Part shown: piece after piece, positions 5,933 through 19,673 of the stretch
Numbering within the stretch: position 1 is the first letter of the stretch
Layout of the letters: each line of letters opens with the position of its first letter
DNA from: a virus
IMG/VR virus record: IMGVR_UViG_3300047319_000348
Location: 1-20,278 of that record
Length of the DNA: 20,278 nt
Strand: one strand, 5' to 3'
Translations under genes and position numbers: made by a program
The notes under the pieces: model-generated
The model's database searches: none
Seen by the model: only the letters and a program-made list of their open reading frames with translations
What the model was told of the DNA's origin: nothing

Positions 5933-8900
5933 TATTGCACCAGCCCCACGGTCGGGATGGGCGCCCGCTGCGCGCCGACGAGTTCAGCGGTGAGGTCGAG
6001 CCACGTCACGCCATCGTCCGACGTGGTGATGAGCGCCGCTGCCTGGGTCGTCGAGCCGCCATACGCAAAGACCTGCTTGACAGCCTTGAACAGCAGAATG
6101 AAGGGGCGCAGCGTGCCCGATGCTCCATTATAGACCGTCGACCATGCCGTCCCGTTGAACTGGTAGATTTTGGCGATATTCGTCGCGTCCGCGTTGAAGT
6201 AGGACGCGTAGATGAAGCCGTTGTCGACCAGCATCGAGGGGAAGCGGTTGTTGACCGCTGCCGCGCCGCCCGTGGCCGTCAACGAGGTCGTCCAGGTGCC
6301 CGACGAATCGCGTTTGTAAACGTGCGCGAAGTTCCCGACCGTGTTGTCGGTGCCGACGTAGAGTTCGCCCTGGTAGCTGACCATCGAGACCGCGCCACCC
6401 GCCGCCAGGACGTGGTCCGTCGTCCAGGCTGTGTCGAGCCCTGGGCGAATGTAGTAGATGGTCCCGGCGCTGCCGTCGCCCTTGTTCGTCCCGACCCACA
6501 GGCGCCCCATGTGCCACACCATCGCGTAGGGCACCTCGCCCGCCGAGAAGCCGGTCGACAACTGCGCCAGCTCGGTCGTCAGCGGATTGAAGGTGAACAC
6601 GCGACCGGCGAAGTTGGCCGAGGTCGTGCCGCTGTCGAACGACGTCAAGTAGACGATGCCCGCATTCAGCAGCATCGAGACGATGGCTTGCGAGATGGTC
6701 GCACCCGAGTTCGGGATGTTGCCGACGAGCCGGTCGGTCACGCCATCGAACAACCGAATCGGCGGCTGGTCCGTGCTGACCACGTAGTCGTTGCCGGGGT
6801 AGATAATGTGGTTGTGGAACGTCACCGACGCTCCCGGCGACCCACCGAACTTCGCAGAGAACGCCGACAGCTTGTCCCAGTCGCGTGGTGGGCGCGGACG
6901 TCCGTTGAACGTCGTCACCTGCACGTTCCCGGCGAACGCCTCGTCGCTGTAATACCAGCCGCGCACCACGTCAGGGATGAATGGTCCCGGCGCCGCTTGC
7001 TCGGTCGGCGCGGTCGCCACGTCGACCACCTGTCCCGACCAGCCGCCAGGGTTGATAGCTCCGGCGATGACGAAGACGTGGTAGACGACTGCGTTCGTGT
7101 TCAGGTTCGAGGCGACGGTAATCTGGTTGAGGTCGCCCCCGGTAATGCCGGTCGTGATGATAGTGCCCGCAATGCCCGCACTGTTCGTGCCGGTGAAGCC
7201 GGGGTCGCGGTAGACGCACCCGCCCGAAGTCTCGGGGAAGATGAAGGCCAGCAAGGGCGAACGCCCACCGAGCGCGACCGCGATGTTGCGCGCACCCGTG
7301 CCGTCACCCGTGTAGGTGAGGATGTCGACCGAGCCGCTGTCCCCGTTCTGGTCGGTGTCTCGCCAGCACGAGAACTGTGAGCCCACCCCCGTGCGCTGCA
7401 CGCTGGAGTCGACGTTCAGCGAGCCAACGCCACAGGTGAACTTGTTCGTCGTCGTGTTGCCGGTGATGGTCGAGGCGACTAGCGCAGCCATCGCACTGTC
7501 CGCATACCACTGCTGGTTCACACCCGTGTCTGGGGCTTCGCGTCCACCGAACGCCGCACCGATGGAGAACAGCGGGTCCGCGAGCAGACACAAGTTCTGC
7601 GCGGTGCCCGCCGACTGCGAGAAGCCCGCCATCTCAGCGTTACACATGAAGCGCATCGCGGTATCCGAGACCGCGACATACTGATACGTGAGCCCGTTGC
7701 CGTTGAGCACGGTATCCGTGCCGGACAACTTCATCGTCGTCGGGGAGAGCCCCGAGACATTCACGCCTTCGAGCAACGAGCCATTCGCGGAGTCGATTGC
7801 CATCGGACTCACGCGCGTTGACCACCACAGGCGCGTCGGCGCCGAGGCGGCAACCTTGCGGATGAAAATCCAATGCACCGGCTGGACGAAGGAAATCTCC
7901 TGGCCCGCCCCAGTGCCGGTGTATTGTCCGCTGTAGACCACGAACGGGGCGGGCGGCGGGGCAACAGCCAACGACGCCTGCGACTTCGGGTAGGGCGAGT
8001 TGTGGACCTGCGGGTTCGGGCGCGGCGTATCGACGGACGCAGGCAAGTCCTCGCGTCCCCAGTAGCCGAGACACTCTACCTGCACCGACAGGAGGGCCAT
8101 CTTGATGGTGCCGCCAATCGTGCCAGGGTTGAGAATCAAGTCGAGCTGGTCGAGCGGGGTCGGCTGCGTCAGTCCGGCTGGCAGACCCTGCATGAGGATG
8201 GTCGAGACGAACCCGGCGCCGGAGTTGATAAGGGTGACCGTGCTCAGCGCCTCGGTCTCCACGACGCCAGCAACAGTCGCCTGTGAACCGAGCTGCGCGG
8301 TCGCGGATGTGTTCGCGGAGTTCTGATAAGCCGCGATGCACCACGCTGCAACCCCAAGCCGCTGGTCAGGAATCGCCTGTAGCAGGTCCGTCGTGATGGC
8401 GAGCCGTGACGCCGAGGTTGCCGTCGACATGAACGAGGTCAGCGTGTCGCCGGGAACCACGAAGTCGTTCAGGAGGTTCTCATACTTCCCGGTCCAGTTG
8501 ACGCTGGTATCGGCACGCAGGCCACTCGCGCGCACCTGGAAGACGTGCGAGCCATAGAGCCAGTCGGGCGAGTTCTCCAGGAACCCCCCGTCGATGATGT
8601 TCCCCGAGAAGAAGTTGATGGGGTTCAACCCACGGCAAATCCAATCGTCGATGTCGTAGTCGAGCGTCGAGTCCGTCGTGGCGATGAGCGTCGAGTTGGT
8701 GATGAGGTCGCCCCCAATCGCAGCCGTCGACAGCACGAGGCCCGCGCCTCCACCGATGGGATACTCCGCATTCGGCCCCGTGAAGGCACCCGTGCCGTCC
8801 ACCGATGGGCCTTCGCCACGAATCGAGACAATGGCGAGCCCCGACCGACTATCCGCCGCTGCCTCTCCGAACTTGAAGCAGATGTCGATGCGATACCAGC

Positions 8901-12349: not shown

Positions 12350-12362
12350 GATGCTGTCCTTT

Positions 12363-12405
12363 CTACCCCGCAGGGTAGTGGGTGGCACCCCGCAGGATGC
12401 CACCC
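12363..12405 (-). terminator. Two tandem hairpins between head-accessory genes
   Basis: On the coding strand the first hairpin has 8-bp arms GGGTGGCA and TGCCACCC (12405-12398 and 12387-12380) with a 10-base loop. Two bases later a second has 6-bp arms CTACCC and GGGTAG (12378-12373 and 12368-12363) with loop TGCG. The second ends directly against the AAAGGA ribosome site of the next gene. The 10-mer ACCCCGCAGG (plus strand) occurs in both, at 12365 and 12387. No T-run follows, so a classical intrinsic terminator is doubtful. An mRNA-stabilising or processing element, or a translational control element, is as likely. Confidence 0.6.
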
Positions 12406-12413
12406 GTTGAAAC

Positions 12414-13088: not shown

Positions 13089-13109
13089 GGAGGGGAACCT
13101 TTCAAGATT

Positions 13110-13135
13110 GGGGGGACAGCCCCTGCCGTCCCCCC
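13110..13135 (-). terminator. Strong GC hairpin between head-accessory genes
   Basis: Perfect 8-bp arms GGGGGGAC and GTCCCCCC flank a 10-base loop, within the 61-base gap between the 164-aa and 224-aa genes. On the coding strand it is followed by AATCTTGAAAGG, only a weak U-tract, and it stands about 10 bases before the ribosome site of the next gene. It could be a leaky terminator, an RNase barrier or a processing element that separates expression of the two genes. Confidence 0.6.
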
Positions 13136-13149
13136 GGTTACGAGTTGTC

Positions 13150-14294: not shown

Positions 14295-14738
14295 TTAGTC
14301 TCGCTGGTTCCCGGCGAACCCGGAGTCACCAATCTCGCCCATGCTGACCTGCGCCTCGAACGCGTCGAACGGCTTCTTGCGGAGGAGGACACGCTTGCCC
14401 ATGACCTCGCCCCAGAACTCGCCGCTGCGGTCGACCACTTCGAGCTTCGCATCAGCCAGGGCCAGCGTCTCGTCGCTGATAGGCGTGATGTCGTCCTTCT
14501 GCTTCTCACCCTCGAACGCCTTGATGCCGACGAGCGCAATGAACTTCTGTGGGTTCAGCGGGTGCTTCGAGCCCATGAGCGGGTTCTGCCGCTTCGCGTA
14601 GGGCACCGCGACAATCGGGAAGCCGGGGTTCTCTCCTGGCTTCAGGGTGATGTCTTCACCGTCGTAGCGCACGTTCAACTCGCGGCTGGTGCGGTTCACC
14701 AGATTGACTGCATCGCGGAAGTTTCCAAGTATTCCCAT
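14295..14738 (-). CDS. Conserved-looking protein of unknown function downstream of the capsid gene, 147 aa
   Basis: ATG at 14738 with AAGGTG about 6 bases upstream. The sequence begins MGILGNFRDAVNLVNRTSRE, then LNVRYDGEDITLKPGENPGF and VAVPYAKRQNPLMGSKHPLN. The combination VNLVNRTS..LNVRYDG..I.L.PGEN and YAKRQNPLMGS is a pattern I associate with an uncharacterised protein found next to podovirus capsid genes. The rest is mixed alpha/beta with charged ends (EFWGEVMGKRVLLRKKPFDA). It has no transmembrane or catalytic motif. A major structured RNA element lies between it and the capsid gene, so it is probably expressed at a lower level than the capsid protein. Confidence 0.75.
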   Translation of the reverse strand: MGILGNFRDAVNLVNRTSRELNVRYDGEDITLKPGENPGFPIVAVPYAKRQNPLMGSKHPLNPQKFIALVGIKAFEGEKQKDDITPISDETLALADAKLEVVDRSGEFWGEVMGKRVLLRKKPFDAFEAQVSMGEIGDSGFAGNQRD

Positions 14739-14753
14739 AAGTCACCTTCTCCC

Positions 14754-14839
14754 TCTCTAAAGAGAATTGCCTCGGGGGCTTTACTGTGTTCCCGGCCAGA
14801 AGGCACGGTGTCCAGCAAGCACCCCCGAGGACTTGGTCG
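14754..14839 (-). terminator. Long nested stem-loop after the major capsid gene, probable terminator or attenuator
   Basis: On the coding strand, outer arms CCTCGGGGG and CCCCCGAGG (14830-14822 and 14778-14770) pair over 9 bp. CTT/AAG then continues the stem after a 2-base TG bulge. Inside, CTG/CAG and CCG-T-GCC/GGC-CGG stack around a TTCT tetraloop, giving an elongated structure of about 61 bases. CAATTCTCTTT follows, with a small TCTCT/AGAGA stem (14754-14765) just before the next ribosome site. A partial terminator after the capsid gene is known in short-tailed phages (T7 T-phi after gene 10). The position and partial T-rich tail fit that use, though the size is unusual. Confidence 0.65.
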
Positions 14840-16186
14840 TTACAGCTCGGGCACAACCACGAGGGTCTGTCCGGTCACGCCATCCCAACGGGCGCAGACG
14901 GCCGGGTTCCCCACGAAGTTCTGCTTGCGCGCGAACCACCACGCTTCGAACGCGTGGCGGGCATTGTCACCGACACCGTCGCGGACCAGGATGCTGCCAT
15001 CCTCGTCCACGAAGCGACCGGGCTCAGCCACATACTGCTTCGCGGACATCCGTTTGGTGTCCAGAAAGTAGACTTGGTCGAGGCCCAGGGTGCGGATAGG
15101 CGTGACGGGAACCTCACCCAACGTCAGGTCACCCGAGGGGTCGCCAAACGCCTTGGTGCCGGGGTCCGTCCGACGCTTGTCGGTCGCGTCGTAGTTGTAG
15201 CGCCGGTCGGCCACCGTCAGCTTGATGAACTCCCGGCGAACCGAGGGGTGCATCAGGAGACGGTCCACCGTGGCGTTCAACTTCTGGTAGAGCACGTCAG
15301 CCGTCCGCTGCATCGCGTCCGTGGCGAGGGCGCCCGCTGAGGCGACCACGTAGGACTTGTAGAGCGGAACGAGGGACCGCTGCACCTCGAAGTAGTTGGC
15401 GCGGTTCGTGCCGTCGTCGACCAGGGCCGGGAGACCCCAGTAGGCGTGCTCGTAGCTGGTGTCCAGGACGTCCGTGACGCCTGAGTTCGCAGCCTGCACG
15501 ATGTAGTCGCTGGTCGCCCATGCCGTCAGCGTCGAGAACGAGACGTCGATGGTGACGTCCGTGCCGTCCTCGTTGACCGAGATGACCTTGGCGATACCCG
15601 CGCGAATGCTGCCATCCGCAGGGTTAATCGCCGCGAGAAACATCCCGGCCTGGACGAAGCGGTTGCCGAACGACACGTTGGCGACGTTGCCGGGGTTCTT
15701 GAGTTCGAGCACGGTGCCCGAGGAACCCGCAGCGATTGCGGCGAGGATGCCGCGACCGTCGCACGACAGCGCAAACTCTTCGCGTTTGGCGATGTCGTCG
15801 ATGATACGCGTCATTTCGTCTTTCTTCGCACTGCGCCACGCAGCCTCAGACGACACGCTGTCGTCCATCGACTCCTGGGTCAGACGGATACGAGCCATCA
15901 TCTTGCGGATGGACACCGTGCCGTTGATGTGACGCTGTGCGCCCGCACCCGCGAACGCGCCGTCTTCGGCCACGAACATCGGGCTCGGGTTACGACCCAC
16001 ATGCGCGACGAAGGTGTGACCCTTGCCGCCCTTGTAGTCGATTTTCTCTTCCTTGAAGACGTCGGTCAGCGGATTGACGTTGTTCACGCCTTCCGCGATG
16101 CCCTCTTCGAAGACATCCTTGTAGAGACCGAAGACCGCAGTGGAGTCAGCGCCGACTCCGGGTGAGGAACTAAGAGTTGTGCTCAT
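14840..16186 (-). CDS. Major capsid protein, HK97-type fold, 448 aa
   Basis: ATG at 16186 with AGG about 8 bases upstream, a site that overlaps the stop of the scaffold gene. It follows portal and scaffold in the canonical order and has the length expected of an HK97-fold capsid subunit. The N-terminal 45 residues are a short arm and helix (LYKDVFEEGIAEGVNNVNPL). Residues 46-105 look like the extended E-loop strands (IDYKGGKGHTFVAHVGRNPS, then TVSIRKMMARIRLTQESMDD). A long helix follows (AWRSAKKDEMTRIIDDIAKR), then beta-rich A- and P-domain segments and an ending near ARWDGVTGQTLVVVPEL. No N-terminal protease-cleaved delta domain is obvious, so a separate scaffold is probably used. Expected to be the most abundant virion protein. 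Confidence 0.88.
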   Translation of the reverse strand: MSTTLSSSPGVGADSTAVFGLYKDVFEEGIAEGVNNVNPLTDVFKEEKIDYKGGKGHTFVAHVGRNPSPMFVAEDGAFAGAGAQRHINGTVSIRKMMARIRLTQESMDDSVSSEAAWRSAKKDEMTRIIDDIAKREEFALSCDGRGILAAIAAGSSGTVLELKNPGNVANVSFGNRFVQAGMFLAAINPADGSIRAGIAKVISVNEDGTDVTIDVSFSTLTAWATSDYIVQAANSGVTDVLDTSYEHAYWGLPALVDDGTNRANYFEVQRSLVPLYKSYVVASAGALATDAMQRTADVLYQKLNATVDRLLMHPSVRREFIKLTVADRRYNYDATDKRRTDPGTKAFGDPSGDLTLGEVPVTPIRTLGLDQVYFLDTKRMSAKQYVAEPGRFVDEDGSILVRDGVGDNARHAFEAWWFARKQNFVGNPAVCARWDGVTGQTLVVVPEL

Positions 16187-16191
16187 GCTTT

Positions 16192-17070
16192 TTACCTACC
16201 GAACACCGCGCCTCGTTCTTTGGCGAGCTTCGCCGCGAACTCGATGCGGTCGTCCAGCGAATTGAACTTGTCCGGCCGGGTCACAGTGGACACGGCTTGA
16301 CGTCCCCCCGAGGAGGGAACGGGACGAGCCCGGTTGACAGTTCGGGCTACGCCTTGCCGACGCGCCGGGTCAACCCAGTTCTTGGTGTAGCGAGCAACGA
16401 ACTCATCAAGGAGCTTCTCGTCTCCATTCTCGTAGCGGTCGAGGGTCTTACTTTCCGTTCCCCCAGTCGCTTCGAGTTCCGCTGACGCCTTGGCTTTCAG
16501 CCATCCCGCAAAGTTCTCGCGGACGTCGGTGACTTGGTCGTCATCGAGTGCGTCCACGTTCAATGCTTCAGCGATACGGTCGCTGATGGAATGCACCTGC
16601 GTGTTCCCATGTTTCTGCCAGCCTCGCTGCTCTTGGCTTTGCGAGCGAGCAAGAAACTGTGGGGTTTGCAAGAGAGCGTCACGCTGTTCCGGCGACAGTT
16701 CAATGAACGGTCGGAGTTCCGGGACCAGTTCGAGTAGCGCGGCCTTGATGTTCGCAGCCTTTTGTTCGGCTGCGTCGGTCGGGGCGACTCCTGCGAGCGC
16801 CTCCACCCGTCGTTGAGCTTCCGAGAGTTGAGTTGTCAGTGCTTCGACTTGACGAGCCTTCTGACTAACTTCGTTGAACCGATGCGGAGGAATCCACTTC
16901 GAACGGTCTTCAGCATAAGTGAACCCGGAAGTCGCCCCGGTTGGCGTGGCTGCTGGAGCCGGTGTTCCTGTGCCCGGTTGTGCTGATGCAGCGCCAGCCC
17001 CAGGAGCTGCCGCCCCTGCGCCTGCTTCACCAGCGGGTTGCTGACCTTCGACGACTGCGTTTTCGGCCAT
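16192..17070 (-). CDS. Capsid assembly scaffolding protein, 292 aa
   Basis: ATG at 17070 with AAAGGA about 7 bases upstream. It lies directly before the major capsid gene, with five bases between. Residues 10-48 are an Ala/Pro/Gly-rich disordered leader. Residues 56-95 carry the recurring scaffold pattern SKWIPPHRFNEVSQKARQVE followed by a coiled coil (ALTTQLSEAQRRVEALAG). Two helical acidic blocks follow (100-145, 160-205). The C-terminal part is basic and ends in a helix (SLDDRIEFAAKLAKERGAVF), the usual capsid-binding end. It would guide procapsid assembly inside the cell and leave before DNA packaging. No protease domain is visible, so it is probably recycled or removed intact. Confidence 0.85.
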   Translation of the reverse strand: MAENAVVEGQQPAGEAGAGAAAPGAGAASAQPGTGTPAPAATPTGATSGFTYAEDRSKWIPPHRFNEVSQKARQVEALTTQLSEAQRRVEALAGVAPTDAAEQKAANIKAALLELVPELRPFIELSPEQRDALLQTPQFLARSQSQEQRGWQKHGNTQVHSISDRIAEALNVDALDDDQVTDVRENFAGWLKAKASAELEATGGTESKTLDRYENGDEKLLDEFVARYTKNWVDPARRQGVARTVNRARPVPSSGGRQAVSTVTRPDKFNSLDDRIEFAAKLAKERGAVFGR

Positions 17071-17189: not shown

Positions 17190-19673
17190 TTACGCTTGCC
17201 CCGGTATGGGCACCTGCCCCGTCTTGACCTGTTGGGCTCGGCCCGCCGCCGACGCGGCTGTGCCCCCGGCACCGGACGAGGATGCCCCCACGCCTGCAGC
17301 GTTCTGGTCGCTGTTGCGGAGGGCTTGGCGCGCGCCATGATGCCCCTGGTCGGTCGGACGGGCACCAGGAGGTGTCGGCTGACCGGGAGCCGGAGCCCCC
17401 GGAGCCCCCGGAGCCCCTGGCGCTCCCGGAGGTGCGGGAGGCGCCCCGAGCTGCACGAGGATGCCGTTCGCGTCCAGGATGCCCGCTGCCTCTTGTTGAA
17501 TGGCGATGTCCACCTGCATCAGGTAGGCTTCAATCATCAGCTCGGCGGGCGGGTGCTCGGTGAAGATTTTCCGGCCCGCGTCAGAGAGCGCCCACTTCAC
17601 CGTCTCGTTGTGGTGAATGCGCGGGTTATACCAGCGTTTGTAATTCAGCGGCGTGACGTTCGTCTGCACCGCTTGCGCCTGCGCCTGCGGGTCGTTCCAG
17701 AACTTCTCGAACAACTCCATGTTCTTCCACGCCTCCTGCACCTGCGCGTCGATGGCGGGCAGCAAGCGGGACATACCGAACTCCTGATAGATTTGCATCT
17801 TCTGGTCGGGGTCGTTGATGTCGAGGAGCCCCATCGTGCCGAGGTGGTCGATGGCAGCGCGCTGCCCGAGCGACGTCTTCGGGGTCAACGTGCCATCCTC
17901 GATGATGATGTCGAAGGCGCCAGTGAGGTTCGCCTTCTTGAACTCCTGGAACGCCCACCCGCGACCGGGCGCCATCATCGCACGCGTCTGCGTCTCTTCC
18001 CCGAACTCGCGTTCGATTTCGAGCGCGTCCTTGAACCAGCCCTTGTAGGTGCGGCCCCGGTCTTTGTAGGCCGAGGCGTGGCGACCCTGGGCGCGTTCGA
18101 GGAGCAGGGACATCGTCGCGTAGGCGTCGACTCCCTGGGGCTGCTCGCCGCGCAGAATGTCGTAGACACCCATCAGCTCCTGCGCCTCCTGCTTGATGAG
18201 GGCGCGGTAGGAGAAGATGGACGGGTTGATGCCCTCGCCGGGAATGCGCTCCGGCTTGGCGTTGCCTCCGGCGACGAGCGGGTTCCACTTCACGACGAGC
18301 CCCGGCTCGCCCGTGAACTTCTCGACCTCGGCGCCCTTGGGTTCGAGCCAAATGGGGTTCGCCATACGGCCAATGGTCATCATCATGTGCGAGTCGAGCT
18401 GGTTCAACTGGTCCTGCTTCTGCACGGCAGGGTCAATGAGGGACGCACCGATGACGCGCCCGCCGATTTGCGAGTAGCGGGTGTGGTGGAACGTGAACAG
18501 CGGGTTGCCGTCTGCCGAGTGGTAGGGGATTGGTCCCGGCAGCGACTCCAGCTCGGAGTGGATGATGACCGGCGCGGAGTCGCCCGCAATGCGGATGACC
18601 TGCCCCTCGGGGAAGTCCGAGCACGGCTTCACCCAGACGTCGTATTCGACCACGCCTTCCGTGTCGACGTTGGCGCCGCCCGACGCGAAGTAGGGTGGCG
18701 TGATGCCGATGTCGCCCTGGAACGGCAGCGTCTTGAAAATCTGCATCGTGCGTTCCTGCGGCGTCTTCGAGAAGGCGAGCGTCTTCGCGTAGGTGTCCTT
18801 GAACTCCGGGTGCTGCTCGTAATACGACTTGTCGCGCCACCGCATGCGGATGGTGAACGGGATGTCGTCGAACCGTTCATACATGAGCGGGAACGCCAGC
18901 TCGAACGGGGAGAGCGCGTAGGTGACCCCCTTGGGGAGTTCCTGTGTCGTCGGCGGCACGGGCTGGCCGGTCGTCGGGTCCACTGCAGGCGAGAAGGGTC
19001 CAGGCGCCTGACAGCTCGGGCACTTCTGACTGTTGTTGGCGATGTCGACCTCGGACGAGGAGACGCCGCACGCCGCGCACGTCTCCTGGTGGATGTCGAT
19101 GGTGCCGTTCTTCCGCGCCTTGTCGATAGCGGTGTGGATGAAGGCGTTGCCGGTGACGAGCATCCAGAAGTCGTGCTCGTTCATCACGAAGTCCATGTTG
19201 TGGGACTCGTGGAGCACCGGGCCGTAATCGTCGGCCACACTCGCGGCCACGACGTTCGTGTTCGCGTTGCCGATGGGGCGCGCGTTGGCGCCGTAGTTGA
19301 TGAGGGCGAAGTTCGCGCGCACCGCGTCGACACCATCCTTGAGGATGTTCGTGACGGGGCGCGGAATCCACTTCGCCAGCCGCTTGTCCTGCCACTGGCC
19401 GCGCTTCGAGTCGAAGTAAATCCACTGGCGATTGAGGATATACCAGACGTTCCGCATCCACTGGCGCTCGAAAATCCATCGCTGGTCGAAGGACTCCTTC
19501 TTCCAGCGTTTCCACATGTCCAGGAGCTGCTGGTCGGTGAAGGCCGCAGCAGCCGGTGCAGCCGGGTTCGTGACCCCGGTGCCTGCGGTGGCTTGGTTGA
19601 GGGGCGTGCCGGAGACTGGCCCCTGGGGGACCATCACTCCATTGCCGTCAGACATGAACGAGTTGTTTGGCAT
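17190..19673 (-). CDS. Portal protein with zinc-ribbon-like insertion and collagen-like tail, 827 aa
   Basis: ATG at 19673 shortly after the upstream stop, with a weak GAAG site. An ATG six codons in has no better site. Residues 46-180 match the portal N-terminal region: MWKRWKKESFDQRWIFERQW, LNRQWIYFDSKRGQWQDK and VTNILKDGVDAVRANFALIN. Residues 375-600 contain the core typical of portals (FTFHHTRYSQIGGRVIGASL, then LDSHMMMTIGRMANPIWLEP). Residues 199-221 hold two CxxC pairs (C199, C202, C218, C221), unusual for a portal. Residues 743-772 are Pro/Gly-rich with GAPGAPGAPGAP, followed by an Ala/Gly/Ser-rich end. As the dodecameric vertex it would anchor the packaging motor and the neck. The length is at the long end for portals because of these additions. 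Confidence 0.88.
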   Translation of the reverse strand: MPNNSFMSDGNGVMVPQGPVSGTPLNQATAGTGVTNPAAPAAAAFTDQQLLDMWKRWKKESFDQRWIFERQWMRNVWYILNRQWIYFDSKRGQWQDKRLAKWIPRPVTNILKDGVDAVRANFALINYGANARPIGNANTNVVAASVADDYGPVLHESHNMDFVMNEHDFWMLVTGNAFIHTAIDKARKNGTIDIHQETCAACGVSSSEVDIANNSQKCPSCQAPGPFSPAVDPTTGQPVPPTTQELPKGVTYALSPFELAFPLMYERFDDIPFTIRMRWRDKSYYEQHPEFKDTYAKTLAFSKTPQERTMQIFKTLPFQGDIGITPPYFASGGANVDTEGVVEYDVWVKPCSDFPEGQVIRIAGDSAPVIIHSELESLPGPIPYHSADGNPLFTFHHTRYSQIGGRVIGASLIDPAVQKQDQLNQLDSHMMMTIGRMANPIWLEPKGAEVEKFTGEPGLVVKWNPLVAGGNAKPERIPGEGINPSIFSYRALIKQEAQELMGVYDILRGEQPQGVDAYATMSLLLERAQGRHASAYKDRGRTYKGWFKDALEIEREFGEETQTRAMMAPGRGWAFQEFKKANLTGAFDIIIEDGTLTPKTSLGQRAAIDHLGTMGLLDINDPDQKMQIYQEFGMSRLLPAIDAQVQEAWKNMELFEKFWNDPQAQAQAVQTNVTPLNYKRWYNPRIHHNETVKWALSDAGRKIFTEHPPAELMIEAYLMQVDIAIQQEAAGILDANGILVQLGAPPAPPGAPGAPGAPGAPAPGQPTPPGARPTDQGHHGARQALRNSDQNAAGVGASSSGAGGTAASAAGRAQQVKTGQVPIPGQA
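17391..17417. repeat. Three tandem 9-bp units encoding Gly-Ala-Pro
   Basis: CGGAGCCCC occurs three times head to tail (17391, 17400 and 17409), with degenerate copies after it. On the coding strand each unit gives one Gly-Ala-Pro triplet in the C-terminal tail of the portal. The units are identical at the DNA level, so this is a possible site of repeat-number change by slippage. Confidence 0.8.

Follow-up and report, generated by a model that had tools for sequence, protein, structure and literature searches.

A hairpin conserved in position after the major capsid gene of uncultured tailed phages: a candidate step in virion gene expression

The major capsid protein gene of a 20-kb virus fragment from IMG/VR (record IMGVR_UViG_3300047319_000348, analysed over its whole stretch of 20,278 nt and referred to here as the window), which carries its head genes on the minus strand, is followed by a tall RNA hairpin. 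The hairpin is real, and what its relatives conserve is the position of the hairpin and not its sequence. It probably works as a leaky intrinsic terminator, as a block at the 3' end of the transcript, or as both, by which expression would be stepped down after the capsid gene. This reading draws on observations of the hairpin and its position, its recurrence in the same slot, compensatory changes in one distant subgroup and the sense-strand U-tracts of the distant clade.

The hairpin and its surroundings

The genes and signals around the hairpin are collected in Table 1. The hairpin core lies on the coding strand, in sense with the capsid gene, and the 101 nt from the capsid stop codon to the next start are divided into 9 nt, the core and a further 31 nt. 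An earlier note had described a nested stem-loop here, with an outer 9-bp stem and a core of about 61 nt, and both have been recovered: CCUCGGGGG pairs with CCCCCGAGG (14830-14822 with 14778-14770), and the folding energy of the core is -39.8 kcal/mol (z -6.4), a value equalled by none of 200 shuffled sequences. As regards the inner parts, the GCC-UUCU-GGC tetraloop helix and the CCG/CGG pairing with its U bulge were retained, whereas the separate CTT/AAG and CTG/CAG pairings are replaced in the minimum-energy fold, by a small register shift, with a 6-bp UUGCUG/CAGUAA helix. In addition, positions 14754-14766, which fall within the span given in that note, are a piece of the second small hairpin.

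Table 1. Features around the post-capsid hairpin of the window
Feature	Position	Strand	Details
Portal gene	17190-19673	(-)	
292-aa ORF where a scaffold gene usually lies	16192-17070	(-)	
Major capsid protein gene, upstream neighbour of the hairpin	14840..16186	(-)	PHROG 14242 major head protein, E 8e-20; stop TAA 14840-14842
Main post-capsid hairpin	14770..14830	(-)	10 bp at the base (one of them U-G), 6 bp in the middle helix, 6 bp at the top with a U bulge; UUCU loop
Weak U-tract after the stem	14759..14769	(-)	C AATTCTCTTT; 4 T in 8, longest run 3
Second small hairpin	14747..14766	(-)	UUCUCUUU-AGAG-AGGGAGAA; -6.2 kcal/mol alone; 3' arm adjoins the ribosome-binding site
Ribosome-binding site of the 147-aa gene	14742-14748	(-)	AAGGTGA
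147-aa downstream gene, conserved in relatives	14295..14738	(-)	homologues 42-63% identity

The main hairpin is the top-ranked inverted repeat in the window and the second most stable fold among all 66-nt segments of its coding strand. The whole post-capsid gap also folds stably on this strand (z -3.9), the plus strand across 14754-14839 folding less so (z -2.3). The first-ranked 66-nt fold, at 17360-17425 on the minus strand, is a repetitive GGGGCUCC/GGAGC structure in the C-terminal, Pro/Gly/Ala-rich region of the portal frame.

As in intrinsic terminators, a stable G+C-rich RNA hairpin is present on the transcribed strand. The trailing tract (AATTCTCTTT), which had already been judged poor, is interrupted and starts with two A, and it contains 4 T in the first 8 bases with a longest run of 3 in the first 10. 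The main hairpin was not picked up by a simple terminator scan of the window, owing to its long loop and short U-tract, and an Rfam scan of the window gave no family match above the gathering score.

Hairpins have also been found in two further gaps of the same strand. The gap 3' of the 164-aa gene (13089-13149, minus strand) holds an 11-bp hairpin with z -1.6, and the gap 3' of the 256-aa gene (12353-12413, minus strand), before the gene starting at 12352, holds hairpins of 11 bp and 6 bp with z -3.3; therefore, the element may serve after several virion genes. The first of these hairpins is formed by GGGGGGACGGC/GCUGUCCCCCC at 13110-13135 (minus strand), between the 164-aa and 256-aa genes. 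The gap 3' of the 164-aa gene contains hairpins in the relatives L002, L003 and L005 too, of different sequence, that of L002 being followed by CCTTTTTG.

Recurrence after capsid genes and turnover of sequence

Wider searches provided 77 non-duplicate capsid ends. Gaps of 35-250 nt were considered, and a hairpin was counted as strong at z < -3, that is, more than 3 standard deviations below the background of its locus. A strong hairpin is present in 56 of the 61 non-duplicate capsid ends with such a gap, compared with 8 of 101 other gene ends with gaps of this size in the same loci (p ~ 1e-28), and when capsids were grouped at 90% identity it was found in 45 of 49 clusters. In fact, at least five of the eight hairpins at other gene ends are really post-capsid: in L088 and L126 the capsid end was mis-assigned or an extra ORF lies between; L094, L095 and L101 have one or two ORFs separating capsid gene and hairpin. 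A gap of 35-250 nt follows 82% of capsid ends versus 25% of other gene ends. All these gap counts depend on heuristic gene calling, with a few capsid ends mis-assigned (L088, L126). Where there is no gap directly after the capsid gene, a single small ORF is often met, and then the hairpin (L022, L094, L095, L101, L104, L117). In the distant relatives L022, L028, L104 and L117, a small ORF begins right at the capsid stop codon, ahead of a hairpin ~200 nt after the stop. The spacing between stop codon and hairpin differs greatly from one relative to another.

At the level of sequence, turnover is the rule. An exact search of IMG/VR returned the hairpin only from the window and from IMGVR_UViG_3300046780_000167, a 50-kb sibling contig which is 99.99% identical to the window across 11.4 kb and in which a second copy of the hairpin was not found. 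Moreover, blastn of the post-capsid gap against phage records gave no match, and relatives at 78-83% capsid identity (L002, L003, L005) have different gap sequences, L003 carrying a 12-bp hairpin followed by CAAATTTTT and L005 a perfect 13-bp hairpin without a U-tract. Homologues of the 147-aa gene (42-63% identity) are likewise located 3' of the capsid gene in L002, L003, L005 and L020. In L002 a free-standing ORF (7448-7966), which by eye resembles an HNH endonuclease, sits exactly in the post-capsid slot, and the tall hairpin is missing there. A capsid search of bacterial and archaeal genomes gave 138 pattern matches, none of them confirmed, and therefore yielded no prophage relatives and no host assignment.

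The elaborate nested shape had been taken as special in the earlier note, a view that finds no support: relatives have plain long hairpins of other sequence, and a covariance search with the structure of the window matches only the window and its near-identical sibling. Because there is no diverged homologue, the window hairpin has no covariation record of its own. The checks proposed in that note had a mixed outcome: the fold is better than that of shuffled sequence, whereas the covariance search near capsid genes gave no homologue for the window's structure and, from a model of distant relatives, structured elements beside capsid genes. In this subgroup of 12 distant relatives, 9 of 15 stem pairs have changes on both sides, and the covariation score of 0.49, versus 0.19 when shuffled, was reached in 0 of 500 shuffles and is clearly above slid registers; the stem is maintained there by compensatory changes. 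The covariance model built from the subgroup (R1) finds L022, L026, L028, L117, L125 and L126, the matches in L022, L026, L028 and L117, which were not used to build it, being hairpins ~200 nt past the capsid end. R1 gave no match in the window, whose hairpin is related to those of the distant clade by position only.

U-tracts and alternative readings

The T residues following each hairpin were counted after the G+C core of the stem, as the weak outer A-U pairs otherwise absorb the tract. Hairpins of the distant clade have a mean of 4.76 T in the 8 bases that follow the stem, versus 2.14 expected, with at least 4 in 40 of 50 hairpins, and this mean also exceeds the 2.72 A of the mirror tract before the stem (p ~ 8e-7). 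In the window's near clade, represented by only 8 hairpins, the mean is 2.0 T in 8, no better than background. A tract on the sense side, as in the distant clade, is a signature of intrinsic termination in sense orientation, so the post-capsid position appears to serve the family as a whole as a terminator slot, one in which the window's phage combines a strong stem with a weak tail. Two of the roles suggested in the earlier note, an attenuator or leaky terminator and a stability element for the capsid mRNA, are consistent with the family-wide evidence (slot hairpins, compensatory changes and distant sense U-tracts), both being predicted rather than demonstrated; a third possible role, a small structured RNA released from the transcript, finds no support here.

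A pure mRNA-stability element, acting with no termination, is a possible though rather unlikely alternative. The operon transcript would be cut near the hairpin by RNase III, RNase E or another enzyme, after which the tall hairpin would protect the capsid fragment at its 3' end and the small hairpin the downstream fragment at its 5' end. The poor U-tracts of the near clade agree with such a role, as do the second small hairpin directly ahead of the ribosome-binding site and the similar small CUCUU/AAGAG stems that lie, in L003 and L005, between the hairpin 3' of the 164-aa gene and the ribosome-binding site. Nevertheless, this slot retains U-tracts on the sense strand in the distant clade, a signature of termination. 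A more specific version, which we regard as doubtful, would have the slot of the GC-rich near clade lose its U-tract and become a pure processing element. The tall hairpin would then protect the capsid 3' end and the short one the 5' end downstream, a stable small RNA might be released, and the arrangement would recur after several virion genes, including the 164-aa and 256-aa genes.

A translational role may also be considered, in which the main hairpin would insulate or throttle downstream translation while the small hairpin masks part of the ribosome-binding region. The small hairpin pairs GGGAGAA just ahead of AAGGTGA, and the bases of the ribosome-binding site have a pairing level of about one half in the ensemble. 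This role is nonetheless improbable, given that the spacing from hairpin to start varies in other relatives, that the small hairpin is no general feature, and that conservation concerns the tall hairpin close to the upstream stop.

A chance palindrome, or an element acting at the DNA level (replication, packaging or a mobile repeat), would suit a hairpin sequence unique to the window's phage, but is very hard to reconcile with hairpins in the slot at 56 of 61 gapped capsid ends despite sequence turnover, with compensatory changes in one subgroup and strand-specific U-tracts, and with the single copy found in the 50-kb sibling. Stimulation of stop-codon readthrough or frameshifting, leading to a C-terminally extended minor capsid protein, was rejected as the least credible reading: the hairpin does begin 9 nt past the stop and the frame after the TAA is open for ~48 codons (by eye), but the stop is TAA, the second in-frame codon after the stop in L003 is another stop, and the spacing is not kept among relatives.

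Expression after the capsid gene

According to the preferred reading, a leaky terminator and/or 3'-end block, the nascent RNA would fold into the hairpin while RNA polymerase leaves the capsid gene, and a fraction of the transcripts would end there by leaky intrinsic termination; alternatively, transcripts would be cut further downstream, trimmed back to the hairpin and shielded by it from 3'-exonucleases. By either route the capsid coding RNA would become more abundant than that of the downstream genes; read-through transcripts would still supply these genes, which have their own ribosome-binding site. The lowering of expression downstream is an inference from these data, as is the relative weight of termination and 3' protection. 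For the window's phage, with its weak U-tract considered, leaky termination has a slightly better than even chance of being the main action of the hairpin, and 3' protection after processing is a less likely candidate for that part.

A T7-type RNA polymerase (PF00940) was found in none of 19 records, possibly incomplete, comprising the window, the 50-kb sibling and 17 relatives, the T7 control being positive (1e-109); within these records, the host polymerase is the likely user of the hairpin.

The arrangement is already known in kind from phages T7 and phiX174, the precise action of the window hairpin being a prediction. In T7, the order of capsid stop, hairpin terminator (Tphi), ribosome-binding site and next virion gene (gene 10 capsid, gene 11) is the same, and the window hairpin shares the position between the capsid gene and the next virion gene that is a trait of T7-type class I terminators. 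However, the T7 stem is followed by TTTTTT, whereas the window has a taller stem and a poor U-tract, and Tphi is used by T7's own RNA polymerase, of a type not found in the window, its sibling or the 17 relatives. The phiX174 terminators TJ, TF and TG, which are also leaky hairpins within a run of virion genes, have been reported as ~40-60% efficient (PMC11527146) and lower transcript levels stepwise (PMC11527146, PMC9135205), although phiX174 is a small ssDNA phage and these efficiencies were measured in it. Of these, TF resembles T7 Tphi in stepping expression down behind the capsid gene. Furthermore, an apparent strong terminator immediately 3' of the capsid gene, the same position as here, has been described by ONT-cappable-seq in LUZ100 (PMC10134795), a T7-like phage which has its own RNA polymerase and is no sequence relative of the window's phage.

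Overall, an uncultured tailed phage family in which no T7-type polymerase was found keeps a post-capsid hairpin very consistently despite sequence turnover, and this constancy suggests that selection acts on a simple step in the expression of its most abundant virion protein. The hairpin is a ready mark for finding the capsid expression step in uncultured phages, and the strong, weak and absent U-tracts met in one and the same slot form a natural series for testing what the hairpin alone does.
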